This document shows positions 2,527 through 33,124 of a DNA stretch of 33,124 bases, piece after piece; position 1 is the stretch's first letter; each line of letters starts with the position of its first letter. The stretch is from the IMG/VR virus record IMGVR_UViG_3300021168_000067, positions 1 to 33,124 of that record; one strand, given 5' to 3'. The stretch is from a virus. The notes under the pieces were generated by a model. That model was given only the letters and a program-made list of their open reading frames with translations. It was not told the origin of the DNA and ran no database searches. Position numbers and translations under genes: made by a program.

Positions 2527-2528
2527 CG

Positions 2529-3358: not shown

Positions 3359-3364
3359 TACTCC

Positions 3365-3861: not shown

Positions 3862-3863
3862 GG

Positions 3864-4211: not shown

Positions 4212-4221
4212 TTGTTTCTCC

Positions 4222-4404: not shown

Positions 4405-4431
4405 AAATCCTATATCCTTTCCATAGTCCAA

Positions 4432-6665: not shown

Positions 6666-6749
6666 CCGGATGCTCCTTTAATTCTAGTGGGCGGAGACGG
6701 CACGTGCGATCTCCTTTAAGCTTCGCATCCTTGAGAAGCACCCCAAATG

Positions 6750-6962: not shown

Positions 6963-6964
6963 GA

Positions 6965-7875: not shown

Positions 7876-7889
7876 TTTCGGTTTCCTTT

Positions 7890-13788: not shown

Positions 13789-14274
13789 CTAATGTCGGCA
13801 GTCTGGGCAGTCATCTGCATCTGCATAACCATGCGGACATGGGACATTTGGAGCATTTTTAAGAATTTCATACGCGGGTTGTCCTATCAATTTTCCGCGC
13901 TCGATCCCATCTAATCCGGTATCATCGTCATCTTGTTGTGCGTGATGGCCACCATCTTCTGCACTCTGTTTTTGACTTAAACGTGCACGATACTCTGCCT
14001 CTACTAGCAATAGATAACGACGTAGATCTTGAATTTCTGCAAGTGTAGTGCCATCTGCACCAGGAGTATCATCTTCATTTATGGCTGTGAAAACGTTGTA
14101 GCTGAACACTTCAACCATATTTTCTAAACGATCCCACTTTCTAGCGAGCATCATAAAGGCTCCGACTCCTCCACGCTTCTTCCAACTTCCGCGATATGTT
14201 CCTTCTTTAATTTCTAGTATTGTCACATCGTCAAGAGCTACTTGTTTCAGGTATTCCATATGCTTCATGTTCAT
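13789..14274 (-). CDS. Conserved phage protein with GTYRGSWKKRGGVGAFMM motif, 161 aa
   Basis: Start at 14274 (MNMKHMEYLKQVALDDVTIL) after AGGAGAGTGAA; the longer frame is the end of the upstream gene. Residues about 25-45 (GTYRGSWKKRGGVGAFMML, ARKWDRLE) and IQDLRRYLLLVEAEYRARL match a family widespread in phages, often beside nucleotide-metabolism genes. The C-terminal CPHGYADADDCPDCRH could bind zinc. No activity is known. It is coupled to the thymidylate-synthase-like gene by an ATGA overlap. Confidence 0.7.
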   Translation of the reverse strand: MNMKHMEYLKQVALDDVTILEIKEGTYRGSWKKRGGVGAFMMLARKWDRLENMVEVFSYNVFTAINEDDTPGADGTTLAEIQDLRRYLLLVEAEYRARLSQKQSAEDGGHHAQQDDDDTGLDGIERGKLIGQPAYEILKNAPNVPCPHGYADADDCPDCRH

Positions 14275-15272: not shown

Positions 15273-15912
15273 CGTTTCCTCCCTGTTGCAACCAGTCGCG
15301 TATTGTTTGGAAGCTTCCCTGACGGCTGAGCAAGCGGCATTTTACACCTATCGTCCGAAGTTTGACAAATTCTTTTTTACTCTTGTCATCCAGTGCGATG
15401 ATGGTGTCTTGCTTTATGTTGTGGCCGCGGTCGTGTACGGCTTGTATGCACTTGGTTATTGGATGGTCTATGAACACAACACGAACATCCAATCTAGCTT
15501 GATGCATGATCTTGATACGTTCTAGGCTGTCGTTGAAATTCTTGCCCTCATACAATACATCGGCGCCTAGCTCATGATGCTTGAGAACCAACTCATAAGC
15601 ATAGTTCAAGCTTGGCAATGTGTCAATACCGCCATTCTGGATTTCGTAGTGGCCGGGAACAAACAAGCGACGTGTGGTATCTCCTTTGGATCTAGGGCAT
15701 TCTGTTTCTTCGCTAGGTTTATAACCTTTTGGGAAGCTGACTGTACAGCTACAGTCAGGATAAGAACAACTCCATGAGCATATGTAGCCCATGGGTTTTC
15801 GCTTGTTCACTTCCGGATAAGCTATCGCGATGCGCGTTGGATATAGATCCATAACCTTGCGCACGATCGTGCTCTTGCCAGAACCATTTGTACCTCGGAT
15901 ATTCACAATCAT
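15250..15912 (-). CDS. P-loop kinase, candidate 5-hmdU DNA kinase, 220 aa
   Basis: Walker A GTNGSGKST (7-15) is followed by a short beta strand, VPGHYEIQNGGIDTLP (85-100) with the Tyr-Gly-Gly-x-Asp-Thr signature of phage P-loop kinases, then ADVLYEGKNFNDSLERI (Walker B-like D/E). Residues 45-72 form a Cys-rich insert (C45, C49, C54, C56, C72) which may bind zinc. Kinases of this general kind phosphorylate 5-hydroxymethyl-dU in DNA in hypermodifying phages. Other small-molecule or polynucleotide kinases share the fold, so the substrate is inferred from its neighbours. It overlaps the thymidylate-synthase-like gene by 23 nt. Confidence 0.75.
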   Translation of the reverse strand: MIVNIRGTNGSGKSTIVRKVMDLYPTRIAIAYPEVNKRKPMGYICSWSCSYPDCSCTVSFPKGYKPSEETECPRSKGDTTRRLFVPGHYEIQNGGIDTLPSLNYAYELVLKHHELGADVLYEGKNFNDSLERIKIMHQARLDVRVVFIDHPITKCIQAVHDRGHNIKQDTIIALDDKSKKEFVKLRTIGVKCRLLSRQGSFQTIRDWLQQGGNDARPGGS

Positions 15913-16211
15913 TTTCTACCCTTCTTATAACAATCTGGACACTGATGTTTCCCAGCTATCATATGCCATATCAAATTCTTGAATGTTTTTATTGCTTGAT
16001 CATAATCCGCTGTTCCAACAGTAAATTTCTTTGGACAAAAATCACAGTTAAAGACTGTGCGCCCACGAACCGCACCTTTTGTTTTAGTCACTGTCATTGT
16101 CACTCGGTTTCCTCCATGCGAAGTTTTCTCTTTTCCCAAGCTAATCGCGTTGAATATTACGATATCGTGAATGATGACGTTGAAAATACCATGCCTCTTT
16201 TCGTTGATCAT
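15909..16211 (-). CDS. Zinc-ribbon protein, 100 aa (or 64 aa from an internal GTG)
   Basis: The core is CDFCPKKF ... IAGKHQCPDC, two CxxC knuckles forming a probable zinc ribbon. ATG 16211 overlaps the radical SAM stop (ATGA) with a purine-rich site. An internal GTG at 16103, 7 nt after GGAGG, would give a 64-aa version containing just the ribbon; the ribosome site there is the better one. Such ribbons often bind DNA or act as protein adaptors. Its position between the radical SAM and kinase genes suggests a partner role in that pathway. Confidence 0.65.
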   Translation of the reverse strand: MINEKRHGIFNVIIHDIVIFNAISLGKEKTSHGGNRVTMTVTKTKGAVRGRTVFNCDFCPKKFTVGTADYDQAIKTFKNLIWHMIAGKHQCPDCYKKGRK

Positions 16212-17239
16212 TTCTCCTTCCAAGGTATACGAAGAATCTTTTCTCTAGGGCCAGTTTTCATTGCTGCCACTATATCAGCTTTAGTTTGTTCATCAGGCTT
16301 GTGCAATTTACCTTTACCTAATAAATCTGGGAGCAAGCCTACTCTATAAGATCTATGATTACATCCATCACATACCGGGATTGCTTTCCTTTCACCACGA
16401 ATAAGCATTTCACGGGCAGCCCCTAAAGCATTTCCTTGCCAAATTTCCTCCATAGATTTTTCATTTATGTTACCACAATTATATGTTGAATCCCAAGTGT
16501 TGCAACAAATCGGAACATTACCGTCCCAGTGTACAACGAATTGCCTGAATGGATGATGACACCGTTTCCCATCCATACTATGATCTGGTGCAAAAGCTAA
16601 TCCAGCATAGTTGAAAACTTTACTATGATTACCAATCTTGCTTTCCTTGTCCTGTGCAGCAATATCTCGTATTTGTACTAATGTTCTAGTTCCGCGTGGC
16701 CGACGCATATGGGGATTACCTGCTTTGTCTTGTGGATATTTGTAAAATGTGAAACCTAATGGATGTTTTTGTCCTGAAACCAACTCTCCTTTTTCTACAA
16801 GAGCGGCTATTGTCTTCGGTACAAATTTCACAGTTTCATAATCATCTAGCCCAAGCACACTCAATCCAGCTTCAAATAATCCTGTTATGTTCGCTATAGG
16901 TCCTGGTTTGCGTAATAGACCGCTTGCATTGGTAAGCATGGTGATGTGTGCTTTAGGAAGATGTTTGCGAACGATGCCGACCATACCGATGTAGTCTGGA
17001 TGCATTGTAGGTTCGCCGCGCATGGCAAAACCAACACGGCAATTCCATTTCATTTCAGCTATCTGTTGCATCACTGTAGTGATGGTTTCTTTAGACATGA
17101 ACTTATATCCATGTCCTGGTTTATCTTGGATAGCTGGCATAGCACAGAACGGACAATGGATGGAGCATCCAAGAGTCAGCTCAAGCGTGACGTTGAATGG
17201 ATCTTCTTGTTTTCGATATGGTCGGCGCTTCATGTTCAT
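16208..17239 (-). CDS. Radical SAM enzyme with SPASM domain, 343 aa
   Basis: The radical SAM motif is CSIHCPFC (C25, C29, C32; CX3CX2C), followed by RGEPTMHPDY, the equivalent of the GGE motif, and a beta/alpha barrel. The C-terminal SPASM region has C227, C245, C246, C255, C290 and C293 in VVHWDGNVPICCNTW, GNINEKSMEEIWQG and PVCDGCNHR, for one or more auxiliary iron-sulphur clusters. SPASM enzymes modify peptides, sugars or cofactors. It is not QueE-like, since it is larger and carries SPASM. Here it may modify a base or a base-linked group; radical SAM enzymes occur in phage thymine-hypermodification loci. A second start at 17233 is equally possible. Confidence 0.9.
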   Translation of the reverse strand: MNMKRRPYRKQEDPFNVTLELTLGCSIHCPFCAMPAIQDKPGHGYKFMSKETITTVMQQIAEMKWNCRVGFAMRGEPTMHPDYIGMVGIVRKHLPKAHITMLTNASGLLRKPGPIANITGLFEAGLSVLGLDDYETVKFVPKTIAALVEKGELVSGQKHPLGFTFYKYPQDKAGNPHMRRPRGTRTLVQIRDIAAQDKESKIGNHSKVFNYAGLAFAPDHSMDGKRCHHPFRQFVVHWDGNVPICCNTWDSTYNCGNINEKSMEEIWQGNALGAAREMLIRGERKAIPVCDGCNHRSYRVGLLPDLLGKGKLHKPDEQTKADIVAAMKTGPREKILRIPWKEK

Positions 17240-17247
17240 GGTTCCTT

Positions 17248-17808
17248 TCAGTAAGGTATGTCTTCAGTGGTTCTGTCCATAATAAACTTTTGTTTTGTTA
17301 AGTCAATAGTGAGTCGCATCACTTTGGCTTGATACATGGCGTTGAGAAGAGTTTGCATCTTAGAATTTTGGAGATTGGCGTCCAAGTATTCACCAAGTAG
17401 AGTGTCTGGAGCATCATTGCGTACAATGTCTACTTCATATATGCTAGCATTAGAATTAATTGGTTCTTCATCTGATGTAGATCCATATTCAATAAAATTT
17501 CCTTCAATAGCATCCCAAGAAACTAAAACATAGTCAGCATCATCATGTGGTCGAATACCATGATCTACTAATTCGGAGGCTTTATCTATAGGAATTAGTT
17601 TGTATTTGTTTTGTATTTGAAACATCACATGAGTTAGCTTTTCTTTAATCGCTTGTGCAAAAGACTCAATGTTGACTGCTACGTTCATACTATAGATTTT
17701 AGAGATACAGTGTAATGCTGTTCCTTCTATTGTTTTATCTGGTTTGAAACAGATGATTTTACCATGTCTACCAATCTTGCCGTTTGGTCTATAGAATCCC
17801 ATTGACAT
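17248..17808 (-). CDS. Hypothetical protein, 186 aa
   Basis: Sequence starts MSMGFYRPNGKIGRHGKIIC and looks like an alpha/beta protein, richer in Asn, Ile and Asp and coded by more A/T-rich DNA than its neighbours. No motif recognised. It lies between the radical SAM and glycosyltransferase genes, with GGGAG before the start. It could belong to the modification pathway or be a separate acquisition. The 50-bp gap after it holds nothing clear. Confidence 0.6.
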   Translation of the reverse strand: MSMGFYRPNGKIGRHGKIICFKPDKTIEGTALHCISKIYSMNVAVNIESFAQAIKEKLTHVMFQIQNKYKLIPIDKASELVDHGIRPHDDADYVLVSWDAIEGNFIEYGSTSDEEPINSNASIYEVDIVRNDAPDTLLGEYLDANLQNSKMQTLLNAMYQAKVMRLTIDLTKQKFIMDRTTEDIPY

Positions 17809-17858
17809 TTTTAGTTCTCCCTAATTCAGGTTTGAGCGCAGATGTCGTTCAGAACCTA

Positions 17859-18803
17859 TTACATAGCACCCTCCAACTGTTTGTATGCTGCCTTGATCTT
17901 GCCGTGCAACCCATCACGCTCGGCCAAGGCGGTATTATACCACAACATCTGTTGCTCTTTCTTGATCTTGCTGCGCTCCTCCAACATACGCGCCGCATGC
18001 ACTGCATTGGACACCAGAAACTTTTCTGGATTGTATCCGGCGCGGCGCAACGTCATGCCTGCTTCTTCTTCAAACACCATGGGCAGGCCCGCACTCAGCA
18101 TTTCGTAGAACCTGTTTGGTGGTGAATGGTATTCGTTGTGTGATTTGCGATCCTCCAAATAAAGACCGAGGCCGCGCTCGCTCAGCCATTTAAGCAAGTC
18201 ATCAGCAATGCCTATGGCTTTGATTTTTTCATTGGCATAAGATTCAAATTTCTTGCTCGGGCTTGATATCGTAATATTGCATCTTGGATCTTTGAAGAAT
18301 TTGTCAAATGCCTTGATACGACCAACGCGATAACTGCCATAGTAGGCTACATCGTTCTCGTGCATGTTGCTAGGCAATGGCTTGGCCAGCATGCTCAGGC
18401 AATTCCAATTGATGTAGGTACTGAGTGGTGTTGCTTTGCTTTCCTTTTCACATGTCGTCCAGAATTCTAAGTGCGACTTGCCCATCTTGCGCCGCGCCAC
18501 GAACGCTTGACGGAACGGTGATTTTGCATCTCCATTGTTGATAGGAGGAACAATGGTGTAGTCTTGCTGGATCCAGACGATACGATTGGCTCCCAGGATT
18601 GCTAGACTTAGTTCTTTCAAATGTTTGCAAAAACCATAGGCACCATTGACTATGAACAAGAGGTCCAAGTTGGTGCAGTCAGCAATTTGGTCATCCCAGA
18701 TCAACGGTTTCTGCAACTCATTAGACAAGAACCTTGCGACTTTCGTGCTAGCCACCATTGAGCGCTCAGTGGCCGGGATGAAGCTGAAGATCACTGTTTT
18801 CAT
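17859..18803 (-). CDS. GT-B-type glycosyltransferase-like protein, 314 aa
   Basis: The best signature is near the C-terminus: HSPPNRFYEMLSAGLPMVFE (226-245), then AGMTLRRAGYNPEKFLVSNA. This is the NR-xYE-ALSAG-P pattern of the nucleotide-sugar-binding half of GT-B glycosyltransferases. The N-terminal half has alternating strands and helices (DLLFIVNGAYGF, ANRIVWIQQDYT, DVAYYGSYRVGR). Such enzymes transfer sugars to small molecules, proteins or, in some phages, to hydroxymethylated bases. Being beside the thymidylate-synthase-like and radical SAM genes, DNA-base glycosylation is the attractive role, unproven. The start overlaps the upstream stop by ATGA. Confidence 0.75.
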   Translation of the reverse strand: MKTVIFSFIPATERSMVASTKVARFLSNELQKPLIWDDQIADCTNLDLLFIVNGAYGFCKHLKELSLAILGANRIVWIQQDYTIVPPINNGDAKSPFRQAFVARRKMGKSHLEFWTTCEKESKATPLSTYINWNCLSMLAKPLPSNMHENDVAYYGSYRVGRIKAFDKFFKDPRCNITISSPSKKFESYANEKIKAIGIADDLLKWLSERGLGLYLEDRKSHNEYHSPPNRFYEMLSAGLPMVFEEEAGMTLRRAGYNPEKFLVSNAVHAARMLEERSKIKKEQQMLWYNTALAERDGLHGKIKAAYKQLEGAM

Positions 18804-19129: not shown

Positions 19130-19301
19130 TTCTTCCTCCTTTAGCACGTCGCCTACGTCTCGCTAAATTTTCACGCTCCCTCACACTCACCCGGTAGCGT
19201 ATGTCTGCCTCGATAGCGCGAATTTCCGCGCATTCAAAGCAATACTTTCGAAACCTGATGCGCTCTATTGGTGCGGCACACCGTTCACATTCACCTTTCA
19301 T
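19089..19301 (-). CDS. Small zinc-ribbon protein, 70 aa
   Basis: Starts MKGECERCAAPIERIRFRKY, then CFECAEIRAIEAD; two CxxC pairs give a complete zinc ribbon, followed by an Arg-rich tail (RERENLARRRRRAKGGRN). Likely a nucleic-acid or protein adaptor. Its last 40 bases overlap the next gene. The ribosome site is mediocre (GGGAAGATGCAAC). Confidence 0.65.
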   Translation of the reverse strand: MKGECERCAAPIERIRFRKYCFECAEIRAIEADIRYRVSVRERENLARRRRRAKGGRNERETNIDCSNQR

Positions 19302-20218
19302 GTTGCATCTTCCCATCGGTACTTCTGTTTCGGCATCTTATCTTCGAAGTTGGCTTGATGCCATTTCGAGTATTCGCACAAGCAATTTTGAATGTCTTGG
19401 GCATGCGGTTGCGGCATCTGCTCGGCCTTGAACATCGGCAATAATTTTTCTCGCAGCCTCCCTAGTTCTAGGCGGAATTCATCCTCTTTCCAAACATCCT
19501 TGCGATTGCGGCCACACACATAGTTAAGGCCACGCTTGCTTCCTGGTCCACTGGCAGCAAACGTATGCCAGTCTGATGCTTGACGAAGAGGCTCGTGGTA
19601 TTTTATATCAGCAATCACCTGTGCGGTCATGAAGCTGCCAAATCCTTGCATGCTGCCAAGCAACATGTGATACGAGTTGAGCGTATCGCCTGTCTTTGGT
19701 CGCAGTCTTTCTCGTGCTTTCCACAATGGTTCAATCACTTCATGTGCTAGATAAGCAACTTTTGGAATATGAAAAGAGTCTTTTGTTAAATAATCCATGT
19801 TATCAACACTCGTTCCGGCAGTTGATACCATGTAGGCACCATTAAAGATCTTGCCGCCAGTCTTATAATAGCGACCAAGCAATCGTAGAAAAGTTGTTTT
19901 GTTGAACGGCACTGGATAGCCAACTATTTCTAAACTTTCAGGTAGATTGAGTATACGAGCAACGCACATGGCGAACCATAGTTCCGGATCATTGCTGTGC
20001 GGATTGCGCCAATTTTCTCTGATCCAAACAGTAACCTTGTCATCTTCGCGGTAGATGTTGCAGAAGCGATAACCACTAAGAATAGGATCATTCGTCCATG
20101 GTGGTCTATCACCGGCTTGGCGGCGCATGTAAATCATGTATCGTTCATGAGCGAACGCGAATATACGTTCTACTGGATTCTTGATATTCTTGATCATACA
20201 CTCCATAGGATCTTTCAT
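19298..20218 (-). CDS. HMUDK_hel / alpha-glutamyl-putrescinyl-thymine pyrophosphorylase-like protein, 306 aa
   Basis: Residues 17-70 hold the distinctive pattern ERIFAFAHERYMIYMRRQAG, then PPWTNDPILSGYRFCNIYRE and DDKVTVWIRENW. I associate this with PF18723, the 5-hmdU DNA kinase helical domain or alpha-glutamyl/putrescinyl thymine pyrophosphorylase clade. Members have a helix-rich DNA-glycosylase-like fold and occur in phages that replace thymine by hypermodified forms. Later parts (LNSYHMLLGSMQGFGSFMTA and DWHTFAASGPGSKRGLNYVC) resemble the helix-hairpin-helix and Gly-Ser-Arg-Gly segments of that family. Start at 20218 follows GGAGG. It is the anchor for the hypermodification hypothesis; the match is from memory, not a search. 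Confidence 0.75.
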   Translation of the reverse strand: MKDPMECMIKNIKNPVERIFAFAHERYMIYMRRQAGDRPPWTNDPILSGYRFCNIYREDDKVTVWIRENWRNPHSNDPELWFAMCVARILNLPESLEIVGYPVPFNKTTFLRLLGRYYKTGGKIFNGAYMVSTAGTSVDNMDYLTKDSFHIPKVAYLAHEVIEPLWKARERLRPKTGDTLNSYHMLLGSMQGFGSFMTAQVIADIKYHEPLRQASDWHTFAASGPGSKRGLNYVCGRNRKDVWKEDEFRLELGRLREKLLPMFKAEQMPQPHAQDIQNCLCEYSKWHQANFEDKMPKQKYRWEDAT

Positions 20219-21595: not shown

Positions 21596-21733
21596 TTAAG
21601 GACTCCACATCATCACGGCGTAAACAGTGGCAGCTACTAGCACAGCCAAGAAAAGTTGGAACACGCCTAGACGACCTGCCGCCGCCAAGGCTCCAATCGT
21701 AAATATGATCAGAGCCATTAGCAACGGTTCCAT
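21596..21733 (-). CDS. Mini membrane protein, 45 aa
   Basis: MEPLLMALIIFTIGALAAAG then RLGVFQLFLAVLVAATVYAV: two hydrophobic spans around a single Arg. The ATG shares its A with the stop of the upstream 301-aa gene (TAATG), a coupled start. Unrecognised; one of several such peptides in this window. Confidence 0.65.
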   Translation of the reverse strand: MEPLLMALIIFTIGALAAAGRLGVFQLFLAVLVAATVYAVMMWSP

Positions 21734-22638
21734 TAGTATGGGATTTTGTCTGGATCCCCGGCACCATCAGCACGGTCGGCTTCATCTATGCCCGCATCTT
21801 CAGGCGCTTCCATCTTTCGGCCACTTCGGAAAGCTTCAGCCAGTGCTTGGCCCATCATGTAGGCTCTGTTAGGATCATTGCCTACAATCTTTAATCCTTC
21901 CCGATGAGGTTTTTCCGGAAAGCCACTCAGATAGAACATTGGTTCACCCACATCTATGGTATACCATTGTCCTTGATTGTTGCTCTGCATGATTGTGGTG
22001 AGATGATACAGATGGCTCCATGCTGGCCATATATTGCTGTTGTTGGTGTTGCTTCCTCCTCGCACGCGGCGTTGCAGACTGGTACGCTTGGTCATCCAGG
22101 ATCTGCTGACTTTGTGCCCGGTGCTTTTGAAGGGGATGACATAAGGATATGGATTCCCATCGTGCCATACAAAGCCCGCTTCGTATCGTGTGTCCACACA
22201 ATCATTTCCAGTATCTGGAAAATAATAGCGTGGTCTGTTCTTTACCTTGTCGTCACGCGTCGCACCCTCTGGCAGCTTGCCACCATTGTAGTCGTAGCTG
22301 GCAATGAAGCCGCCACCTTGCGCTCGTGGGATCCATTCGGTCCACTTCTGATACATCACACACGGTTGAAAATCGATGCCGACTTTTCCCTGTATGATAG
22401 GAACATGGAAATTCTTGAGCCAGAAATCCCCGCTCCTCGCGTTTTCCATATGTGCTGGCCCGTCCAGAACCTGTGGACTCAATGGTTGTAGCACATAGAT
22501 AAGAGGTACTAGATTATCAGCAGCATCAGTGCTGACGCCTTTCCCCATGTCTTCGTCAAGAGCGCGCAGAACTTCTTCGCTGACTGGAATTTCTTTTTCC
22601 AGTTCTGTGCCAGTAGTAGTCGCGGGGGCTTTAGCCAT
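21733..22638 (-). CDS. Conserved phage protein, candidate ssDNA-binding or recombination factor, 301 aa
   Basis: The N-terminal 20 residues are flexible, then EEVLRALDEDMGKGV (21-35), a motif shared almost exactly with the primase linker at 29573-29617. The body (NLVPLIYVLQPLSPQVLDGP, GDFWLKN, WTEWIPRAQGGGFIAS, PYVIPFKSTGHKVSRSW) is beta-rich and typical of a phage family encoded among replication genes. The C-terminus is acidic (MEAPEDAGIDEADRADGAGD), as in many ssDNA-binding proteins, where such tails recruit partners. The function is inferred from context, not from a named domain. Encoded directly after the 206-aa coiled-coil protein. Confidence 0.65.
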   Translation of the reverse strand: MAKAPATTTGTELEKEIPVSEEVLRALDEDMGKGVSTDAADNLVPLIYVLQPLSPQVLDGPAHMENARSGDFWLKNFHVPIIQGKVGIDFQPCVMYQKWTEWIPRAQGGGFIASYDYNGGKLPEGATRDDKVKNRPRYYFPDTGNDCVDTRYEAGFVWHDGNPYPYVIPFKSTGHKVSRSWMTKRTSLQRRVRGGSNTNNSNIWPAWSHLYHLTTIMQSNNQGQWYTIDVGEPMFYLSGFPEKPHREGLKIVGNDPNRAYMMGQALAEAFRSGRKMEAPEDAGIDEADRADGAGDPDKIPY

Positions 22639-23259
22639 TTATTTCTCCTTCACTGGATTGAGCTTGACCATCTTGCTTACTGTAGCACCCAAGGTGGTCA
22701 GATCTTTGTCGCTGAGCGGCTTGCCATCTTGAAAGCGTTCCTTCACCACGGCTGTCAAAGTTTTCCATGGCACCGTTTCTTCTATTGTTGGAACGACCCC
22801 AAGTTTAGTTAATGCTGCCAATACTTTTTTCAGCAGTTTGTCTTGTCCTAGTCCTAGTTCTATAGTCAAAGTGGTTTTGATGATGTCTCCCAGCTTGTGC
22901 TTGCGCACCCATTGCAGCGCCGCTTTGCGCTGATTGGATGGCCAATCACTTTTGATCACTGCATGATAATGGTCATTCAGCTTGGCCTCATATGCTGGCA
23001 AGTTTCCTTGTGCAGCAATTTCCAAACGATTGAGACCTACTTGCATGAACATGGTGGGCAAAGCATCAAAGATCAGGTTGCGCTTCGTCTGATTTAGTTC
23101 GCTGATATGGTTTTCCAAATCAGCTATCTTGAATTCTATGTCGCGAACCTCCCTGATTTTATCACGTATGAATTCCAGCTTGTCGGCTGGCGGTTTGGCC
23201 GCCATGTCCTTTTCTATCTGCTCCAACAAAGCAGCGTTTGATGTTTTCTGTTCCATCAT
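22639..23259 (-). CDS. Conserved phage protein with N-terminal coiled coil, 206 aa
   Basis: Residues 20-65 are a likely coiled coil (KIREVRDIEFKIADLENHIS, ELNQTKRNLIFDALPTMF). Then comes QVGLNRLEIAAQGNLPAYEA and a helical C-terminal half (WPSNQRKAALQWVRKHKLGD). The GLxRxxxxAxGNLPAxxAK segment occurs in phage proteins encoded next to ssDNA-binding-like genes. Role unknown; co-encoding with the 301-aa gene suggests a joint replication or recombination function. Two adjacent ATGs; the first overlaps the upstream stop. Confidence 0.65.
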   Translation of the reverse strand: MMEQKTSNAALLEQIEKDMAAKPPADKLEFIRDKIREVRDIEFKIADLENHISELNQTKRNLIFDALPTMFMQVGLNRLEIAAQGNLPAYEAKLNDHYHAVIKSDWPSNQRKAALQWVRKHKLGDIIKTTLTIELGLGQDKLLKKVLAALTKLGVVPTIEETVPWKTLTAVVKERFQDGKPLSDKDLTTLGATVSKMVKLNPVKEK

Positions 23260-25842: not shown

Positions 25843-26466
25843 CTATAGTTGGTCTTCTTCATCCAATTTTGGAGGATCTAAACGCAAACGTGATTGTCTC
25901 TGTTGTTCTTCCTGATCAAGGCGCTCCTTTTTCACTGTTGCTACACGATGAGCTGCTTCTGTTCTGTTAATAAAGTCCCGATCCTTTAGAATTTGCATCG
26001 GATGACTTTCATCGCAAATGAGAACACCGAAACAAGCTCCTCCTTTACTTGTGGATACTCGCATTTCATAGTCATTGGCAGGAACTCTAGGTACGAGTTC
26101 CTTTTTCTTGCCGTTTGGTTTCTCATCCCAAACATTGTAATGTGCAGTAATATAAGTCTCAGTGACATTAAGCAAGACTTTCCCAGGAAGATGCTCATTA
26201 AAGAACTCCTCATCTCCCTTTCGCGTGCCCATAGATTGCAGAAACCAACGTTGTGTACAATTTAAACAGGCATCCAAATAATTTTCTCCCCAAACCCTTT
26301 CAGCTAACTCTTCGGCAGTAACACAAACAGCACCACGATCTTTCCATTCTGCTGGATTATTCAACTTTTCAATGCCAAGATCAACGAACCCGTTGCTCAA
26401 AGCATCATGCTGCTTCGATGTTACTCTTTCATCAGCACCAGAAATCCATTCCTTTAGTCGTGTCAT
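25843..26466 (-). CDS. Hypothetical protein, 207 aa
   Basis: MTRLKEWISGADERVTSKQH and a globular alpha/beta middle (CLNCTQRWFLQSMGTRKGDE, VLLNVTETYITAHYNVWDEK), then a charged coiled-coil-like C-terminus (RVATVKKERLDQEEQQRQSR). It overlaps the DUF3102-like gene by ATGA. Base composition is more A/T-rich than the neighbouring zinc-ribbon gene. No family recognised. Confidence 0.65.
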   Translation of the reverse strand: MTRLKEWISGADERVTSKQHDALSNGFVDLGIEKLNNPAEWKDRGAVCVTAEELAERVWGENYLDACLNCTQRWFLQSMGTRKGDEEFFNEHLPGKVLLNVTETYITAHYNVWDEKPNGKKKELVPRVPANDYEMRVSTSKGGACFGVLICDESHPMQILKDRDFINRTEAAHRVATVKKERLDQEEQQRQSRLRLDPPKLDEEDQL

Positions 26467-27083
26467 TTTATTTTCCTCTCAGGTTGCTGGTTCACTTCTA
26501 GTAGAACTGGTTGTTTCAACTGTTTGACACAGTCCAACAAAGTTTCAGCGTAGAGTTGCACAGCATGTGCTAGACTACCGATACGACCTGCGTCAGCATG
26601 GTTACGAAATTCAATAATTTCTAATAGACAGGAATGATGATTGCCTTTAGCTAATTCATCATAATACTTTTGTTCTTTGATAACGACAGTGCTGATGTCG
26701 CGTTGTTTGCCCTTCGGTTTAGATTTACGAGGCACCAATTTCTTGGCATCTTTGCGCTCCATCTTAGGATGTACTTTGCCATTTTCGATTAATTGCTCAA
26801 GCTTGGGTCCTTCAATCCGTGCGAGCACATCAAGCGTTCCCCAAGCCGCTGGCAAATGCAACACGTGTGTTGCATTTCCAATAACAGGATGTTTAGAAAT
26901 GCGCATAAGTCTTGTAGCCGTGTTCCTATGAAAGGGTAAGTCTTCTTCTATCATAGGGATCCATTCACCATGATCTAAGTCTTCTTTAGCTTCAACTAGA
27001 AGTTCACCTGTTTTGATGATACCATCAACTGTTGATTGCCAAGCATCTGTGATTAGCTTGGTCCATTGCTTTCTTGTCGCCAT
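26463..27083 (-). CDS. DUF3102-like protein, 206 aa
   Basis: Residues 15-90 (WQSTVDGIIKTGELLVEAKE, DLDHGEWIPMIEEDLPFHRN, TATRLMRISKHPVIGN, HLPAAWGTLDVLARI) match the DUF3102-type helical domain, where GE-L-x-EAK-x-x-L-x-HG-x-W is the hallmark. The domain resembles DNA-binding helical bundles seen beside ParB-like and phage replication genes. GGAGAATCATC precedes ATG. It lies 16 nt after the SNF2 helicase gene, suggesting co-expression. Biochemical role not established. Confidence 0.75.
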   Translation of the reverse strand: MATRKQWTKLITDAWQSTVDGIIKTGELLVEAKEDLDHGEWIPMIEEDLPFHRNTATRLMRISKHPVIGNATHVLHLPAAWGTLDVLARIEGPKLEQLIENGKVHPKMERKDAKKLVPRKSKPKGKQRDISTVVIKEQKYYDELAKGNHHSCLLEIIEFRNHADAGRIGSLAHAVQLYAETLLDCVKQLKQPVLLEVNQQPERKIK

Positions 27084-27099
27084 GATGATTCTCCTGTTG

Positions 27100-28713
27100 T
27101 TAGATCAACCAGTCCTCATAGTTTGCGCCAGTGATTATCCTGGCTAGATCAAGCTTCTTGCGCAACGCCTTCACAATCTTTTCTTCTACCGTGCCACGTG
27201 TGATCAGATCAATATATGTCACGGTCTTAGTCTGTCCCACACGATGGTTCCTATCCTCTGCCTGATATCGGTGTTCCAGGTCATAGCTGTTGGCAGCGAA
27301 TATAACCAGATCGGCAACGTTCCAGGTGTTCCCTTTACCTCCAGTTTGAGGTGTGCTGAGCATGAACCGGCAATTAGGATCTCCAAGAAATCTTTTTTCA
27401 TCCTCTGCTCGTGTCTTAACATTTCCACCCCAAAAACAGGCCACGGCTTGCGGCCCATACATTAAACTACTGTCGCCGTTTTTCGCTGTGCGTATGGCGT
27501 GCGCCGTCTTGCGCAGTTCGCGATCGTACGTCACCCAGATGATCGCCTTGCCATCATGTTCTTCCAATATGTCTAGTATCGCATCAATGCGTCGGCTGGG
27601 AATATCCTCGATTTCCCCGTCTTCAGTTTTCACATGACCACATACAATCTGATGCAAGCGCACCATCTGCGATAGCACATTGATTGCTGATACATACTTG
27701 CCGCTTTTGAGCTCGGCCATTGCTTGATGACGTATGTCTTTGTAGATTTTTGTCTGCTCAGGAGTCAATGTTAAATCACGCGGCTCATATATCTTGGGCT
27801 TCAAGTCCAAGCAATCTTTCTTCATAACACGATAACAGTACGGCTCATACATCGTGCGCAATTCACTCAAGTTCCGATAATGATCTATTAATGGCACGCC
27901 TTCTATATAGCCCCCATTGTTGATTATGAAATCAGCGCGCTCCTGAATTGTCCAGTCCTTGGTGTCCGGCATACGTATTCTTTTCCTGGTACACATCTGG
28001 CGTAGCCGCATATCCACTATCGGCTCGGGTGGTGCATTCATCAATCGCAGTTTCGCATAGCGTGCCCGAAACGCCACGTAGCTGTTGAAGTTGAGTATTC
28101 GTGGATCCAGGAAATACATCTGCCAGAAAAGATCAAGCGGACTTCGTGGGACTATTAGTCCTGTTAAGATCCGCCGACTACGTGCGAACTTAGCTAGCCG
28201 CATGATTGCTTTGGTGCGACTACTGCGACCATGACGGATGGTCGTGCTTTCGTCTATCACCATCATTCCTTTACCAGCACTGAGAAACTGTCGGCACAAT
28301 AATTCAGTTTCAGTATCCTTGCCCCTGCTTAATGCTTCGATGTTTACGAATAAAGCACGTGGCACCTTGCCGTTGCTTTCTATCAGAGTAGCGCGTCTAT
28401 TTCTATCAGCTGCGGTTTTTCTATTATTCGCTATCAGCAATTTCTTCAGCAGCACCGGATCCAGATGAGTTTCCAATTCGCTTTGTTGATCGTCGCTCTT
28501 GCTTTCATACCAATTGCGTATGCAACCGTTCGGTGCGATTACTAATAAGTCTGTCAACTCATTCTTGTTGACTCTTTGCTGCCACTCGTACAACACCATG
28601 GCAGATTTTCCAGTTCCAGTTTCAGCCATGTGGGCAAAAGCCATAGGCTTGCGCAATGCCCGCTTCACAGCTTCTAGCTGATGCGTCATCGGAGTAGAAC
28701 GGCTGACAAACAT
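27100..28713 (-). CDS. SNF2/SF2-type DNA helicase, 537 aa
   Basis: Helicase motifs in order: Q-like HQLEAVKRAL (11-20), motif I AETGTGKS (30-37), motif Ia LLVIAPNG, motif II VIDEST (152-157; DEST replaces DEAH/DEAD), motif III LTGLIVPRSPLDLFWQ (LTG.P as in SNF2 proteins), motif V STPQTGGKGNTW and motif VI YQAEDRNHRVGQT, the classic SNF2 arginine-finger segment. It translocates on double-stranded DNA using ATP; phage relatives are thought to act in replication or recombination. It is the first gene of the leftward unit, starting just inside the repeat-rich divergent region. The ribosome site is weak. Confidence 0.93.
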   Translation of the reverse strand: MFVSRSTPMTHQLEAVKRALRKPMAFAHMAETGTGKSAMVLYEWQQRVNKNELTDLLVIAPNGCIRNWYESKSDDQQSELETHLDPVLLKKLLIANNRKTAADRNRRATLIESNGKVPRALFVNIEALSRGKDTETELLCRQFLSAGKGMMVIDESTTIRHGRSSRTKAIMRLAKFARSRRILTGLIVPRSPLDLFWQMYFLDPRILNFNSYVAFRARYAKLRLMNAPPEPIVDMRLRQMCTRKRIRMPDTKDWTIQERADFIINNGGYIEGVPLIDHYRNLSELRTMYEPYCYRVMKKDCLDLKPKIYEPRDLTLTPEQTKIYKDIRHQAMAELKSGKYVSAINVLSQMVRLHQIVCGHVKTEDGEIEDIPSRRIDAILDILEEHDGKAIIWVTYDRELRKTAHAIRTAKNGDSSLMYGPQAVACFWGGNVKTRAEDEKRFLGDPNCRFMLSTPQTGGKGNTWNVADLVIFAANSYDLEHRYQAEDRNHRVGQTKTVTYIDLITRGTVEEKIVKALRKKLDLARIITGANYEDWLI

Positions 28714-28725
28714 TCTAGGATATCT

Positions 28726-28758
28726 ATTTGCTAGTGATCGGAACGCATGCTAGCAAAT
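28726..28758. promoter_or_regulatory. Inverted repeat ATTTGCTAG/CTAGCAAAT, operator candidate
   Basis: A perfect 9-bp inverted repeat (28726-28734 and 28750-28758) lies directly upstream of the leftward helicase gene. Its core TTGCTA/TAGCAA recurs in the palindrome at 28780-28797, giving four half-sites in about 70 bp between divergent transcription units, an operator-like arrangement. Confidence 0.6.
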
Positions 28759-28779
28759 AATAATGAGAAGCGCAAGCCC

Positions 28780-28797
28780 CTTGCTATATATAGCAAG
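28780..28797. promoter_or_regulatory. 18-bp perfect palindrome CTTGCTATATATAGCAAG
   Basis: Perfect dyad with an A/T-rich centre containing TATATA, suited to a regulator-binding site overlapping a -10 element for either direction, or to a DNA-unwinding element. It shares TTGCTA/TAGCAA with the nearby inverted repeat. No consensus -35 is obvious. The rest of 28798-28874 shows A-rich sequence (CTATAAAAAAG) but no gene. Confidence 0.6.
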
Positions 28798-28874
28798 TCA
28801 CGTCGCTATAAAAAAGCTTGTACTCCAAATAAATCCGGCGCAGCATTGCCGCCCTAATCCCTCGCGAGCACCCC

Positions 28875-28991
28875 ATGTTAAACAGAATCTATGCAGCATT
28901 GGCAGCTTTGTTCATAGCTGGTGTCTTTGTTGCTGTCGGTGTGTTGATTGGTCTTGCGTTAGCTTCCAAATATTCAACCCTGTGCACATAA
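28875..28991 (+). CDS. Mini membrane protein upstream of primase, 38 aa
   Basis: ATG 28875: MLNRIYAALAALFIAGVFVA, then VGVLIGLALASKYSTLCT. One long hydrophobic span with a basic N-terminus. It ends 11 nt before the primase start; the primase ribosome site AAGGA follows its stop. The ribosome site of this peptide itself is weak (GCGAG). Its length and position match other mini membrane genes here. Role unknown. Confidence 0.5.
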   Translation: MLNRIYAALAALFIAGVFVAVGVLIGLALASKYSTLCT

Positions 28992-29002
28992 GGAAAACGC
29001 CC

Positions 29003-31207
29003 ATGACCGAGCTAAGGCAGTCGGCACATACCTATATCGAGCATAACTGGCCCGTCTTCCCCTGCAATCCCCTCAACAAGCGTCCACTCACAGCACACGG
29101 ACATTTGGATGCATCGCTGGATCCCAAACAAATAGACATATGGTGGACCATTACTCCCATGGCCATGCTTGGGGTGCCCATGGGTCTGCCAAGTGGTGTC
29201 TTCTGCGTTGATCTAGACATAAAGGATAAAATCAGCGGCGTCGAAATGTGGAACATGATGATTGCCAGTGAAAATGCTGGCGTCGATGCCGATACTCGTG
29301 TTCATAATACTCCGAGCGGCGGCAAGCATTACATCTTTATTTGGAAGGAAGGCATCCGCAATATCCCGTTGGGCAAACTTATGCCCGGAGTAGAAATCAA
29401 GGCAGATGGCGGTTATATCGTCGTACCACCGAGCCGGATGGCAGACGGACGTGAATACACCAGCAATGGAAAAGCCATAGCAGATGCACCTGAATGGTTG
29501 ATGCAACGTATCAATGAATATTTTGGTCTACGATCAGAAGAGCCACTCGACCCCGATGAAATAAAAACCAGTGAAGAAGTATTGCGCATGTTGGATGAAG
29601 ACATGGGCAAAGGAGTCAACCTCGAAGACTCTTATGATTTTGGTCAAGGACCTGACATTGATGCTATCAAGGCAGCACTAGACAGTATTCCGTCAGATGG
29701 ATATGAAGATTGGTATCGTCTCGGTGCTGCCATCTTCCGAGCATTAGGAGATAATGGATATACGACATTCCGGGATTGGAGTGCGAAAAGTAACAAGTTC
29801 AAAGAAAAAGAATGCCAGCGCAAATGGAAGCAAGTGAAGGACATCAAGGATATCAACATTGGCTCAGTGTTTTATTTTGCCGACATCAATGATTCCAGCT
29901 GGCGCGACCGATATGAACAACGAAAAGAACATCAGCGTCTGCAACAAGAGAAACAGAGACAGCAGACACAGGATGATGTGAAACCAAAAAAGTTTTCCAA
30001 ATTCCGTACGTATGCTTTGTTTCCCATCGACGAGTCGCGCGTGCCACTACGACCATGGCTCGTCCCTGGATTATTCATGCGAGGACATTTAACGGCGACA
30101 GCCGCGCCTGGAGGAACCGGCAAATCTATTTTCACATTATGTATCGCCATCATGCTTGCGACAGGAAGATCGTGGAGCAATTGGACACCACGTCAACAAT
30201 ATCGCACACTAATTATTAATCTAGAAGAAGACAGTGATGAAATGCGCAGGAGAGCATTTGCCGCTGCACAGCATAGCATGGGAATGAACGACAATAGAAT
30301 ATTGAAAGATTGGATAATCGCTGCAGAATATGATACTCGTCTAGTGATAGCCAAACAGAACAAGGTAACTCGTAGCCTTATACGAGAACCTGTTGTTGAT
30401 GATCTCAAGGAATTTATCCGCGATGAAAAATTCGACGTTATAATTATTGATCCGTTTGCAGAAACATATGAAGGTGAAGAAACTAATAGAGAGTTGAAAT
30501 ATGTTGGTAGTCTATGGAGAGAAGTAGCACGCGACACGCAAAGTGCTGTCTGGCTCATTCATCATGTTAAGAAATACGCGCAGGATCTGCAAGGAGATGT
30601 GGATGCATTACGTGGCGGTGGCGCGTTAGGCAATCTAATTCGTGCAGCTACCACGATGTTTAATATGACAAAGGATGAAGCACAATTATATGAGGTACTA
30701 GAAGAAGATCGCAAATTGTATGTTCGGTTCGATGATGCAAAAGGAAATTATAATCTACCGAACGCCAAAACTGTTTGGTTCAAAAAAGAAACTATGCAAC
30801 TTCAAAATGGATATGGGTCACTACCTAATGACAATGTCGGGGCGTTGATGCCTTGGAATGCGCCAGATAAGCTCGGGAATTTGACACAGGAAAACATTGA
30901 GAACTTGGTAAGTAAAATTGATCAAGGGATCATGGTTGAAAAAGGTATTGAATATTACACATTGAGCTCTACCAAGACATCAGGAAGTAGTCGTTGGGTT
31001 GGTTTCTTGATAGTTAAAGAATTAGGATGTTCAGACAAAACTGCTAGAGACATTATCAAAGCATTTGAACAACGTGAAATACTAGTATCGTTCCCATATG
31101 AATCTCCAGGTAAGCGTGAAACACGGCAAGGATGCGGGAGTAAAAGCAAACGTGCAACCATGCTACAGACGGTGAAAAAATCGACCAAGCCAGATACCCT
31201 ATTTTGA
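29003..31207 (+). CDS. Primase-polymerase / PriCT / RepA-like ATPase fusion, 734 aa
   Basis: Start at 29003 (MTELRQSAHTYIEHNWPVFP), 8 nt after AAGGA; the frame is open further upstream but that part looks non-coding. Residues 5-170 are a bifunctional primase-polymerase domain (CVDLD with D70 and D72; TPSGGKHY with H109; IKADGGYIVVPPS). Residues 215-295 fit PriCT_2 (DWYRLGAAIFRALGDNGYTT, WKQVKDI). Residues 345-560 are an AAA_25/RepA-like ATPase: Walker A APGGTGKS (368-375), Walker B VIIIDPF (479-485), SAVWLIHHVKK and ALRGGGALGNLIRAATTMF. The C-terminal tail is basic. It probably primes and unwinds at the phage origin. The linker carries EEVLRMLDEDMGKGV (191-205), shared with the 301-aa protein. 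Confidence 0.93.
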   Translation: MTELRQSAHTYIEHNWPVFPCNPLNKRPLTAHGHLDASLDPKQIDIWWTITPMAMLGVPMGLPSGVFCVDLDIKDKISGVEMWNMMIASENAGVDADTRVHNTPSGGKHYIFIWKEGIRNIPLGKLMPGVEIKADGGYIVVPPSRMADGREYTSNGKAIADAPEWLMQRINEYFGLRSEEPLDPDEIKTSEEVLRMLDEDMGKGVNLEDSYDFGQGPDIDAIKAALDSIPSDGYEDWYRLGAAIFRALGDNGYTTFRDWSAKSNKFKEKECQRKWKQVKDIKDINIGSVFYFADINDSSWRDRYEQRKEHQRLQQEKQRQQTQDDVKPKKFSKFRTYALFPIDESRVPLRPWLVPGLFMRGHLTATAAPGGTGKSIFTLCIAIMLATGRSWSNWTPRQQYRTLIINLEEDSDEMRRRAFAAAQHSMGMNDNRILKDWIIAAEYDTRLVIAKQNKVTRSLIREPVVDDLKEFIRDEKFDVIIIDPFAETYEGEETNRELKYVGSLWREVARDTQSAVWLIHHVKKYAQDLQGDVDALRGGGALGNLIRAATTMFNMTKDEAQLYEVLEEDRKLYVRFDDAKGNYNLPNAKTVWFKKETMQLQNGYGSLPNDNVGALMPWNAPDKLGNLTQENIENLVSKIDQGIMVEKGIEYYTLSSTKTSGSSRWVGFLIVKELGCSDKTARDIIKAFEQREILVSFPYESPGKRETRQGCGSKSKRATMLQTVKKSTKPDTLF

Positions 31208-31221
31208 TAAGGTTTTAAGCG

Positions 31222-31417
31222 TGCCCCAGTCACCCCCATGGACTGGGGCAAAGACTGGGGCAGACTGGGGCAAACTGTTCTAGCAAGCCCCCTTGCTTTT
31301 TGTCCCAGTCGGACGCTTGCCCCAGTCGTGCAAAGGAAGAACCTTTGCAAAAAGACTGGGGCAGCGCTTACCGTCGGCCGCTGGCCGCTAACGCTTGCGG
31401 CCTAGGCGACTGGGGCA
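31222..31417. repeat. Array of eight GACTGGGGCA repeats, candidate replication origin
   Basis: Copies on the plus strand: 31241-31250, 31253-31262, 31263-31272, 31354-31363, 31408-31417. Inverted copies (TGCCCCAGTC): 31222-31231, 31318-31327 and one with a single change at 31301-31310. Opposed copies can form 10-bp stems, for example 31222-31231 with 31241-31250, or 31318-31327 with 31354-31363 enclosing GCAAAGG/CCTTTGC. This 337-bp gap directly follows the primase gene, as iteron origins often do. A GGCCGC/GCGGCC stem lies at 31376-31402. Confidence 0.7.
31282..31301 (+). terminator. Short intrinsic-terminator-like hairpin
   Basis: AGCAAG-CCCC-CTTGCT followed by TTTT (31282-31301) within the repeat array, 75 nt after the primase stop. 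The stem is only 6 bp, so strength is uncertain; the plus-strand position after the primase fits a terminator or attenuator before the NusG-like gene. Confidence 0.5.
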
Positions 31418-31544
31418 AAAAGGCAAAGAGCGGGAGGCTTGCGCAGTTTTGGTGCAGATATAAATGTTCAGGAAAAATCTGGATCGCTTGCATCGCGCCG
31501 CGTTTTGCGTTACAAGGCCGACCCAATGCCGCAAGGCCGCGCCA

Positions 31545-32021
31545 ATGCCATGGATGGTCGTACGTACGGAGCCGCAACGTGAACTGGTAGCGCAACGCTA
31601 TGTCCAGCTGTTCGGGAAAGAAACCTTCCTACCACGATTTCGCGATTGGCGAAGCGGAAGAATCAAGTCACTCTATCCCAATTATCTGTTTGTTGAGTAT
31701 GATGGGAATTGGTCCTATCTTCGTCGAACCTATGGTGCGAAAGATCCAATTTTCGTAGATGGAGCTCCTGGTGTTGTTCCTGATGAACATGTTGAAGAAC
31801 TACAAGGAAGGCAAGACTCGGAAGGTTTGATATTGATAGACCTAGATGTTGGTCATGTCGTTACGGTAGTTCGAGGAAACGATATGCGAGGTTGGACTGG
31901 GATTTTTAATGGGATGACCGACAAGGATAGATGCGAAGTCTTGTTCAACATCATCGGTCCGCCCGTTTCCAAGATTGTAGATACTAAGAATATTCGGGCC
32001 GAGAGCCTACATCTTATTTGA
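31545..32021 (+). CDS. NusG-like transcription (anti)termination factor, 158 aa
   Basis: Start at 31545 (MPWMVVRTEPQRELVAQRYV), matching the NGN domain opening W-x-V-xxT-xx-ReexVa. The NGN core continues (FLPRFRDWRSGRIKSLYPNY, LFVEYDGNWSYLRRTYG). The C-terminal part (DVGHVVTVVRGNDMRGWTGI, then a final beta stretch) is a KOW-like domain. Length is close to bacterial NusG/RfaH. It would bind the RNA polymerase clamp. As first gene after the origin-like region and before HNH and (beyond the window) probable late genes, a role in late-operon antitermination is likely, by inference. AAGG lies about 10 nt before the ATG. Confidence 0.85.
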   Translation: MPWMVVRTEPQRELVAQRYVQLFGKETFLPRFRDWRSGRIKSLYPNYLFVEYDGNWSYLRRTYGAKDPIFVDGAPGVVPDEHVEELQGRQDSEGLILIDLDVGHVVTVVRGNDMRGWTGIFNGMTDKDRCEVLFNIIGPPVSKIVDTKNIRAESLHLI

Positions 32022-32083
32022 GCGTTGTTTAGTTTTCTGGTCACGACAACCGATAATCGTTTTGTCGGTATCGCCGGAGGTTC

Positions 32084-32176
32084 ATGTTGTCGCAGTTCAG
32101 TCAAGTGGGTTTGTGGCTGATTGTTATGGCTGCAATAATGTTTGGTGTTGTCGCTGTCTTTTTGTTCATTCGGTAA
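32084..32176 (+). CDS. Mini membrane protein, 30 aa
   Basis: MLSQFSQVGLWLIVMAAIMF, then GVVAVFLFIR: one membrane span with a short polar N-terminus. CCGGAGGTTC precedes the ATG. It resembles the 30-aa peptide at 32617-32709 in size, start (MLS) and hydrophobicity. Role unknown. The 66 bp following it is A/T-rich (TTATTATATATATTTAAAAG) and could contain a -10 element. Confidence 0.5.
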   Translation: MLSQFSQVGLWLIVMAAIMFGVVAVFLFIR

Positions 32177-32242
32177 GCTGCGCTGTGCCGTTATTATATA
32201 TATTTAAAAGTAGCCCTAACGACTGGCATTGAGGTAAAGATT

Positions 32243-32614
32243 ATGTCGCGTTCACAATTCAGTTTCATGTATCATCGCAAGCGATGGTTCATGCGCCGTC
32301 GTGCTCAGTTAAGGAAGGAACCGTTGTGTGTGATATGCTTGCAACGTGGCATAGCAACGCCAGCAACTATTGCTGATCATATCATTCCACACAAGGGTGA
32401 TTGGAATTCTTTTTGGACAGGTGATCTGCAATCGTTGTGCTTTACACATCATAACGGGAGCAAAAGGGAAATAGAAGAAAAAGGTTTTTGCAGCGATGTC
32501 GGTGTGGATGGTTGGCCGTTAGATCCTAATCATTATGCTAACAACAAAGCAGCATTGCGCACGCGCAACAAGAAGCCGATAGCTAAGAAGCACAATCTGG
32601 ATTTGTTAGGATAA
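32243..32614 (+). CDS. HNH endonuclease, 123 aa
   Basis: Zinc-HNH layout: CVICLQRG (first CxxC), IADHIIPHKGD (the catalytic DH-x-x-P-H segment), LQSLCFTHHNGSK (second knuckle with C and HH, Asn and Lys). Basic N-terminus (MYHRKRWFMRRRAQLRKEPL). Small HNH proteins of this type are commonly encoded just before terminase genes and assist DNA packaging in tailed phages, or act as homing-type nicking enzymes. The window ends 510 bp downstream, before any terminase is seen. GAGGTAAAGATT precedes the ATG. Confidence 0.92.
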   Translation: MSRSQFSFMYHRKRWFMRRRAQLRKEPLCVICLQRGIATPATIADHIIPHKGDWNSFWTGDLQSLCFTHHNGSKREIEEKGFCSDVGVDGWPLDPNHYANNKAALRTRNKKPIAKKHNLDLLG

Positions 32615-32616
32615 TT

Positions 32617-32709
32617 ATGTTGTCGCCATGGGGTGCCAGGATCTGGCTGTTGCTCTGTGCTGGAATTCTATTTGCTATTTGGATGCGTTGGATTCCAGGT
32701 TGGCACTAG
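32617..32709 (+). CDS. Mini membrane protein, 30 aa
   Basis: MLSPWGARIWLLLCAGILFA, then IWMRWIPGWH: a single hydrophobic segment with Trp-rich borders. The ATG lies 2 nt after the HNH stop, with AGGATAATT upstream inside the HNH gene. Role unknown. Confidence 0.5.
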   Translation: MLSPWGARIWLLLCAGILFAIWMRWIPGWH

Positions 32710-32842
32710 ATAGACTGTGCCTGCCATAGTAGCCCTTCCTTTAAGCAATGGGCGCGTGCCGTGCCTCTTAGTTATTTGTTCACAAGTATGCTTTGTTCTA
32801 TCCTCTGTGTCGTTATCGGTGATGTTCTTATTTGGACATCGC

Positions 32843-33045
32843 TTGTTTGGATATTCGTATACTGTTTGGAACAAAAGCAAATAGTCCTATTAGGAAATGG
32901 ACTAATAGGTGTCATGGGATGTGGACTAGATAGTAATGTCAAGTCTGTTGTTTGTTTGGATATGAAGGATGGATTTAGAATCTATGGATCTATTTGTTTG
33001 GAATTCGGGTTCGTATTTGTTTGGATGTCGCGTTGTTTGTTTGGA
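32843..33045 (+). repeat. TTGTTTGGA repeats in a gene-poor region
   Basis: Five exact TTGTTTGGA copies at 32843, 32952, 32994, 33017 and 33037; all but the third are followed by T. Variants CTGTTTGGA (32862) and TATTTGGA (about 32829) are also present. A CCTATTAG/CTAATAGG inverted repeat lies at 32886-32893/32902-32909. The region 32710-33124 (415 bp) holds no convincing gene. The repeats fall in differing codon frames, so they are a DNA- or RNA-level signal rather than a protein repeat. Confidence 0.65.
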
Positions 33046-33103
33046 TATCTCAATGGGGTGTCTGTCACAGTTTCCGGAGGGTGGGGGGACTGTTTGAATA
33101 GCA

Positions 33104-33117
33104 GCCCGAGCTCGGGC
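33104..33117. repeat. 14-bp perfect palindrome GCCCGAGCTCGGGC
   Basis: A GC-rich perfect dyad 7 bp from the right edge, after a G-rich run (GGAGGGTGGGGGGAC). It might be a binding site or part of a larger structure cut by the window end. Nothing more can be said from the visible bases. Confidence 0.5.
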
Positions 33118-33124
33118 GAGACGT

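Follow-up and report, generated by a model that had tools for sequence, protein, structure and literature searches.

The operator region oR of phage lambda is the divergent operator region of a phage Cro/CI-type (XRE) switch. Divergent transcription can also arise from bidirectional promoters that depend on symmetry of the -10 element, which are described as common in bacteria (PMC10268837); the commonest spacing of start points in such promoters is 18 bp, and PMC12825309 allows small variations. Here we consider a gap between two divergent replication genes in a virus record of 33,124 bases (the window), which is most likely a divergent control region of the ordinary phage kind, and which a sister phage has with a gene cassette set into it. 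A first-pass annotation of this DNA had read the gap as a divergent control region with four TTGCTA half-sites, a place for a transcription switch or for origin unwinding, and had put forward an XRE protein and an HTH-like protein as regulators to try; the divergent gap with palindromic, operator-like sites stands, and its most likely class was rightly named, whereas neither the unity of the four sites nor the XRE protein as evident regulator is supported. The features on which the argument draws are as follows.

27100 to 28713, minus strand: SNF2-type DNA helicase gene, first gene of the leftward unit (Pfam SNF2-rel_dom, 1.6e-14; PHROG 62, DNA helicase, 1.1e-84)
28725 to 28734 and 28750 to 28759, no strand assigned: inverted repeat with 10-bp arms, 100% complementary, and a 15-nt spacer (TTGCTAG...CTAGCAA)
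28740 to 28775, minus strand: weak candidate leftward promoter, with -35 TTGCGC (28775-28770), a 17-bp spacer and extended -10 TGcTAGCAT (hexamer 28752-28747)
28772 to 28784, minus strand: small terminator-like hairpin GCAAG-CCC-CTTGC with a poor T run, its CTTGC held in common with the left arm of the palindrome
28778 to 28786, no strand assigned: mosaic junction, where helicase-side homology to the sister phage ends (28780) and Prim-Pol-side homology begins (28778), with CCCTTG microhomology
28780 to 28797, no strand assigned: perfect palindrome CTTGCTATATATAGCAAG, 18 bp (9+9, no spacer, 100%)
28875 to 28991, plus strand: possible leader gene of 38 codons, hydrophobic by eye
29003 to 31207, plus strand: Prim-Pol / PriCT_2 / AAA_25 replication protein of the rightward unit (Pfam Prim-Pol, 5.8e-31; AAA_25, 1.1e-29; PriCT_2, 3.6e-15)
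31464 to 32021, plus strand: NusG/RfaH-like protein of the rightward unit (Pfam NusG, 1e-8)

The gap between the helicase start at 28713 and the Prim-Pol start at 29003 contains both the inverted repeat and the palindrome, and its description as a region between divergent units proved sound; it corresponds to the main divergence point in the sister-phage record. The listed open reading frame 28763-31207 shares the reading frame of the Prim-Pol gene; its initial 80 codons are non-coding in appearance (by eye), and the Prim-Pol domain starts at residue 8 when numbered from 29003. Neither PHROG nor Pfam gave a family for the possible leader at E 0.001, and it is kept in the sister phage except for a frameshift near the 3′ end. 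The 31464-32021 protein matches the RfaH model at 3e-11 with 43.5 bits, below the model cut-off of 144.5. Its gene is preceded by hairpins at 31222-31250 and 31282-31297, and in one remote locus (L023) a NusG-family gene likewise follows the Prim-Pol gene. Elsewhere in the window, thymidylate-synthase-like, radical SAM/SPASM, 5-hmdU DNA kinase helical domain and Pam3 gp34/gp33-like proteins are encoded at 14271-15272, 16208-17239, 19298-20218 and 21733-23259, and the phage may make hypermodified thymidine DNA; our literature search found no paper joining hypermodified bases with radical SAM. A DUF3102-type gene (26463-27083) contains a 24-bp inverted repeat, AAATGCAACACGTGTGTTGCATTT, at 26854-26877 (11-bp arms, 2-nt spacer).

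The palindrome is perfect over the 18 bp originally reported, and the inverted repeat is likewise real and perfect, although its arms are 10 bp rather than the 9 bp first given. TTGCTA occurs in the repeat at 28728 (plus) and 28751 (minus), 23 bp apart, and in the palindrome at 28781 (plus) and 28791 (minus), 10 bp apart; the two elements thus do have in common the four TTGCTA/TAGCAA copies that had been noted, which span 69 bp. The hexamer is not enriched across the window (24 found, 20.4 expected). Exact convergent pairs whose gap does not exceed 20 nevertheless number two, against a mean of 0.055 and a maximum of 1 in 200 dinucleotide shuffles, while pairs with one mismatch show no excess (five, against a mean of 2.4 and a maximum of 7). 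Shuffles never exceed three TTGCTA sites in 72 bp, where the window has four, and only 3 of 200 reach three. Thirty shuffles yield a mean of 0.1 perfect 18-bp palindromes (maximum 1), against one in the window, and a mean of 2.7 rows of inverted repeats with arms of at least 9 and a spacer of at most 16 (maximum 7), against 10 rows at seven places; long perfect inverted repeats are generally commoner in the window than in shuffles. A hexamer-free test, in which any hexamer in 2+2 orientation within 72 bp was counted, avoids picking the hexamer afterwards and gives a weaker result than the TTGCTA-specific tests: a cluster arises somewhere in 33 kb in 12 of 200 shuffles. As the cluster by itself is therefore only moderately surprising, the case for a control region rests on its position in the divergent gap and on the fact that the sister phage has the two elements as well.

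That phage, IMGVR_UViG_3300021478_000001 (G001), is the sole close relative found. Its 86,933 bases carry an exact 127-base end repeat, so that it is apparently circular with a map of 86,806 bases, and its tail sheath, terminase and capsid families identify it as a contractile-tailed phage. The open reading frames fall into two arms, one leftward (about 39 kb) and one rightward (about 47 kb), with the point of divergence at 18.2-18.4 kb and that of convergence at about 66 kb. The arms derive from mechanical calls, one set unweighted and one favouring the arm strand; in the latter set, 20 of the 152 kept frames still run against their arm. Window positions 27089-28780 correspond to 15021-16713 of the sister phage at 93.8% identity, and 28778-30508 to the stretch from 18271 at 97.6%, followed by 30509-33124 at 99.9%. 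Between these blocks the sister phage has 1,557 extra bases (16713-18271) with two leftward open reading frames (16937-17614 and 17562-18191) and, by eye, an apparent leftward terminator near 16745-16770.

The inverted repeat stays beside the helicase in that genome and the palindrome beside the Prim-Pol gene, with the two-gene leftward cassette between them. The palindrome is identical there, at 18273-18290, and marks the divergence of leftward and rightward genes in both phages; given 97.6% identity over 28778-30508, a stretch of 18 bases is more likely than not to be unchanged. In the repeat (16657-16692; core half-sites 16661/16684), the TTGCTAG/CTAGCAA cores and the 23-bp spacing are unchanged, one T is inserted outside the core and one spacer base is substituted. 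A search of the sister phage for exact convergent TTGCTA pairs with a gap of 20 or less gave no others. The proposal of one four-half-site module fails on this comparison, as the elements lie about 1.6 kb apart with genes between and each is kept with its own unit; they are accordingly two elements, one per transcription unit. With only one close relative found, conservation rests on two sequences. Each end of the insert carries CCCTTG, of which the window has one copy at the junction, so that a single deletion or insertion via microhomology would explain the difference, and the 69-bp clustering in the window is apparently a by-product of cassette gain or loss between the elements.

The helicase gene has another cassette difference at its 3′ end, where window positions 25843-27088 have no counterpart between matching blocks of the sister phage. 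The two-gene cassettes (window 25843-27083; sister phage 16937-18191, locus L005) differ and flank the helicase on opposite sides, and a comparison of their genes showed no clear homology. TTCTCC stands at both ends of the window cassette and is single copy in the sister phage. At 71.1-74.6 kb (L008:11080-14624), the sister phage also has a long array of 36-bp units with alternating motifs, ACGATACTnTC and ACGGTTCACTC, about 18 bp apart; this array looks non-coding because three translated stretches have stops in all six frames, and it falls outside the window, whose left end corresponds to about 76 kb of the sister phage. A genome-wide TTGCTA regulon was considered and rejected; 15 of 62 sites in the sister phage fall inside a gap or no more than 20 bp away from one (5.9 expected), and 4 of those 15 are the present elements.

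Half-sites 10 bp apart, as in the palindrome, and 23 bp apart, as in the repeat, correspond to about one and two helical turns, which is usual for dimer binding. Because each element is tied to a unit, lies upstream of the first gene of that arm and has half-sites one or two turns apart, the elements are best read as operators. We thus consider it somewhat probable that the region is a divergent promoter-operator region serving two replication units of a tailed phage, with two separate protein-binding sites and one operator per unit. The elements themselves, the gene layout and the association of each element with its own unit in the sister phage are directly observed. The inverted repeat at 28725-28759, a candidate operator of the leftward unit, would be the operator of the helicase unit, probably lying over the -10 and the start point, and a protein on it would cover both (start point about 28740). 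The palindrome at 28780-28797 is a candidate for either an operator or a symmetric promoter element on the rightward side, and would act as the operator of the Prim-Pol unit; its length lies within the size range of a Cro/CI (XRE)-type palindromic operator (about 14-18 bp). We infer that a dimeric DNA-binding protein recognising TTGCTA half-sites would bind one or both elements, perhaps one protein serving both, and would set the timing of the arms; where transcription starts, and whether regulation is positive or negative, are equally conjectural. A further reading, which we think quite unlikely, is that the palindrome is a portable divergent switch found where the rightward replication unit meets any leftward unit (the helicase here, the two-gene cassette in the sister phage), one TTGCTA-bound protein coupling both arms. 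If so, cassettes would be swappable at the divergence point with the coupling of the arms retained.

A standard sigma-70 scan gave no promoter in the helicase/Prim-Pol gap. The weak leftward candidate was absent from that scan and came from a loose one, in which it is one among several comparable matches; its predicted start, about 28740, is close to the centre of the inverted repeat at 28742, and its counterpart in the sister phage has -35 TTGCCT with the same 17-bp spacing and extended -10 TGcTAGCAT. Neither the standard nor the loose scan yielded a convincing promoter on the rightward side. A consensus scan placed overlapping terminator-like sites on the leftward strand at 28784-28772 and 28781-28766, between palindrome and helicase, and 17 such sites in 27000-33124 against 5.2 expected. 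The small hairpin has a shorter-armed counterpart in the sister phage at 16705. Its sequence, GCAAGCCC(C)CTTGC, recurs near-identically at 31283-31296 after the Prim-Pol gene, where a T run follows. The exact ops-like motifs GGCGGTAG and GCGGTAG, sought with the RfaH-like protein in mind, are absent from the gap; Rfam gave no match at gathering thresholds, and a tRNA search found none.

No regulator gene adjoins the sites. The XRE gene product (3070-3354) is a genuine HTH_3 protein by Pfam, and the only HTH-family protein among the 38 window proteins scanned, but its casting as the evident regulator was not sustained, as the gene lies about 25 kb away with no TTGCTA between 1841 and 8176. Autoregulation of the XRE gene through TTGCTA was rejected for want of a site near the gene (1841-8176 clear). 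Four tandem 15-bp repeats are found at its 5′ end (3298-3357). The other regulator that had been put forward, an HTH-like protein at 3583-3861, has no Pfam match to E 1 and no PHROG match to E 0.001.

Other explanations of the gap have to be set against the promoter-operator reading. That the gap is or contains a replication origin, with the palindromes bound by an initiator or unwound, would suit a site flanked by helicase and Prim-Pol genes, and the cumulative GC skew of the sister phage has its minimum at 18,631, roughly 360 bp from the palindrome at 18,273-18,290, and its maximum at 65,627. The minimum, however, coincides with a switch in gene direction, so that skew is confounded with transcription at that place. 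As for duplex stability, the gap is unusual only over 30 bp: a stretch of that length at 28806 belongs to the weakest 0.6% of the window. The helicase side in the sister phage has its weakest stretches in the lowest 2.2% (60 bp) and 4.7% (100 bp), but 8% (60 bp) and 11% (100 bp) of window stretches are weaker than those of the gap, and the figure at the palindrome of the sister phage is 13%. Positions 28500-29100 contain short two-copy families only and no iteron-type direct repeats, and the sister phage splits the four half-sites by about 1.6 kb; we consider an origin unlikely. It is quite unlikely, too, that RNA polymerase uses the palindrome as a symmetric, bidirectional site, with TGCTATATA serving each strand as an extended -10 and TTGCTA shared because an extended -10 begins with it, not as a regulator half-site. 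TGcTATATA is mirror-symmetric on both strands, TGcTAGCAT occurs in the repeat on the leftward strand, and starts in the symmetric register would be separated by 17 bp, within the 7-25 bp range used in PMC10268837. Judged by inspection against the geometry given in that paper, though, no register of TATATATA places the key -11A and -7T together, and the commonest start spacing of 18 bp is not an exact fit to an even-length palindrome, small variations being allowed in PMC12825309. By eye there is also no -35 in reach, the standard scan is without a match, and most TTGCTA sites in other gaps of the sister phage lack a T at -7.

A role of the inverted repeat as RNA, in which a 5′-leader hairpin just before the helicase start codon controls translation, draws on a fold of the 35-nt element at -10.2 kcal/mol (z -4.0), on a stem that ends 11 nt before the start codon, and on the lack, by eye, of a Shine-Dalgarno sequence before 28713. 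A good fold of this element follows from its being an inverted repeat, however, and the whole 90-nt leader is unexceptional (z -1.7; sister phage z -1.1). The inserted base shortens the stem in the sister phage (-8.6 kcal/mol, z -2.6) and is uncompensated, while the TTGCTAG core and the spacing are unchanged, and with a transcription start near 28740 the stem would not be made whole; we regard this role as very unlikely. The same comparison raises the question of whether cassette exchange alone accounts for the sites, as its scar and target, with no transcription role. The homology-block boundary does fall at the left edge of the palindrome, AACAGATC lies near both cassette ends in the sister phage (16726 and 18262), the other end of the helicase gene has the second cassette difference, and the junction sequence GCAAGCCCC(C)TTG also occurs at 31283, outside the divergence point. 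Both phages nevertheless carry the inverted repeat, which is not part of the junction; the strand of the sister phage on which AACAGATC lies has 6 copies of it, and the two cassette proteins there match no recombinase family, which leaves a pure scar highly improbable.

We searched more widely for relatives of the locus. Single-protein scans of viral_contigs with the Prim-Pol protein, the helicase and the 209-aa cassette protein of the sister phage matched the sister phage alone; genome_contigs gave no Prim-Pol relative, and the phages collection gave no match by DNA and 228 records by Prim-Pol protein, all below 60% identity. The exact 18-mer of the palindrome is absent from all viral_contigs contigs other than the sister phage, while the inverted-repeat pattern occurs in six viral_contigs contigs including it; the other five have no match to the five window proteins tried, and three of these have a near-identical AT-rich hairpin in common. 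Alignment scans gave 26 remote Prim-Pol loci besides the sister phage, and helicase loci taken as the best 80 of 577. When 111 loci (L012-L122) were compared, both window proteins were matched at 1e-4 only in L040 and L041, weakly; the helicases of these two are 27-28% identical to that of the window over short stretches, and those of L031 and L039 have no tblastn match at 1e-4. A Pfam scan of nine leftward upstream proteins in 8 of the 26 remote Prim-Pol loci (L017-L042) found SNF2 in four loci, which is a lower bound. L031 is directly divergent, L039 has one leftward frame between, L040 two rightward, and L041 one leftward and one rightward. Whole-record searches found SNF2 in 4 of 6 records and Prim-Pol in all 6, the six records being hand-chosen, four for layout and two as contrasts. 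Perfect inverted repeats (at least 8 bp, spacer of at most 20) were found within 400 bp upstream in 3 of the 26 loci (L021, L027 and L039), none with TTGCTA; the upstream sequence of L037 comprises 122 bases only. The divergent layout thus recurs, and the palindromes appear to belong to this lineage; the best reading is that the two elements are lineage-specific operators of a divergent replication region.

The gap is thus the main divergence point of a phage lineage without a close relative in the phages collection, which makes it the site at which to look for early starts, for a regulator and possibly for an origin. Comparing the two genomes corrects the four-half-site module, and illustrates that cassette gain or loss can cause clustering in one genome. 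Our literature searches found no paper joining phage divergent promoters with primase or helicase, none joining early promoters with GC skew, and likewise none for repressor half-site spacing.

Set beside known systems, the locus resembles the lambda oR type in having short palindromic operators, 17-18 bp with half-sites about one turn apart, between divergent units. It differs from that type in that the regulator gene is not beside the sites, which helicase and Prim-Pol genes adjoin instead, and in having just two elements of differing geometry, each tied to its own unit. With the -10-symmetry bidirectional promoters, as characterised in PMC10268837 and PMC12825309, it has in common a symmetric AT-rich element between divergent genes; relative to those descriptions, the -11A/-7T symmetry is missing, the palindrome is of even length and no -35 is detectable. 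The nearest likeness in gene order is with four remote viral contigs (L031, L039, L040 and L041), in which a leftward SNF2 helicase gene, there of 537-605 codons, is likewise paired with a rightward Prim-Pol gene; those contigs, unlike the window, have no TTGCTA inverted repeats upstream and carry 0-2 further open reading frames between the two genes.
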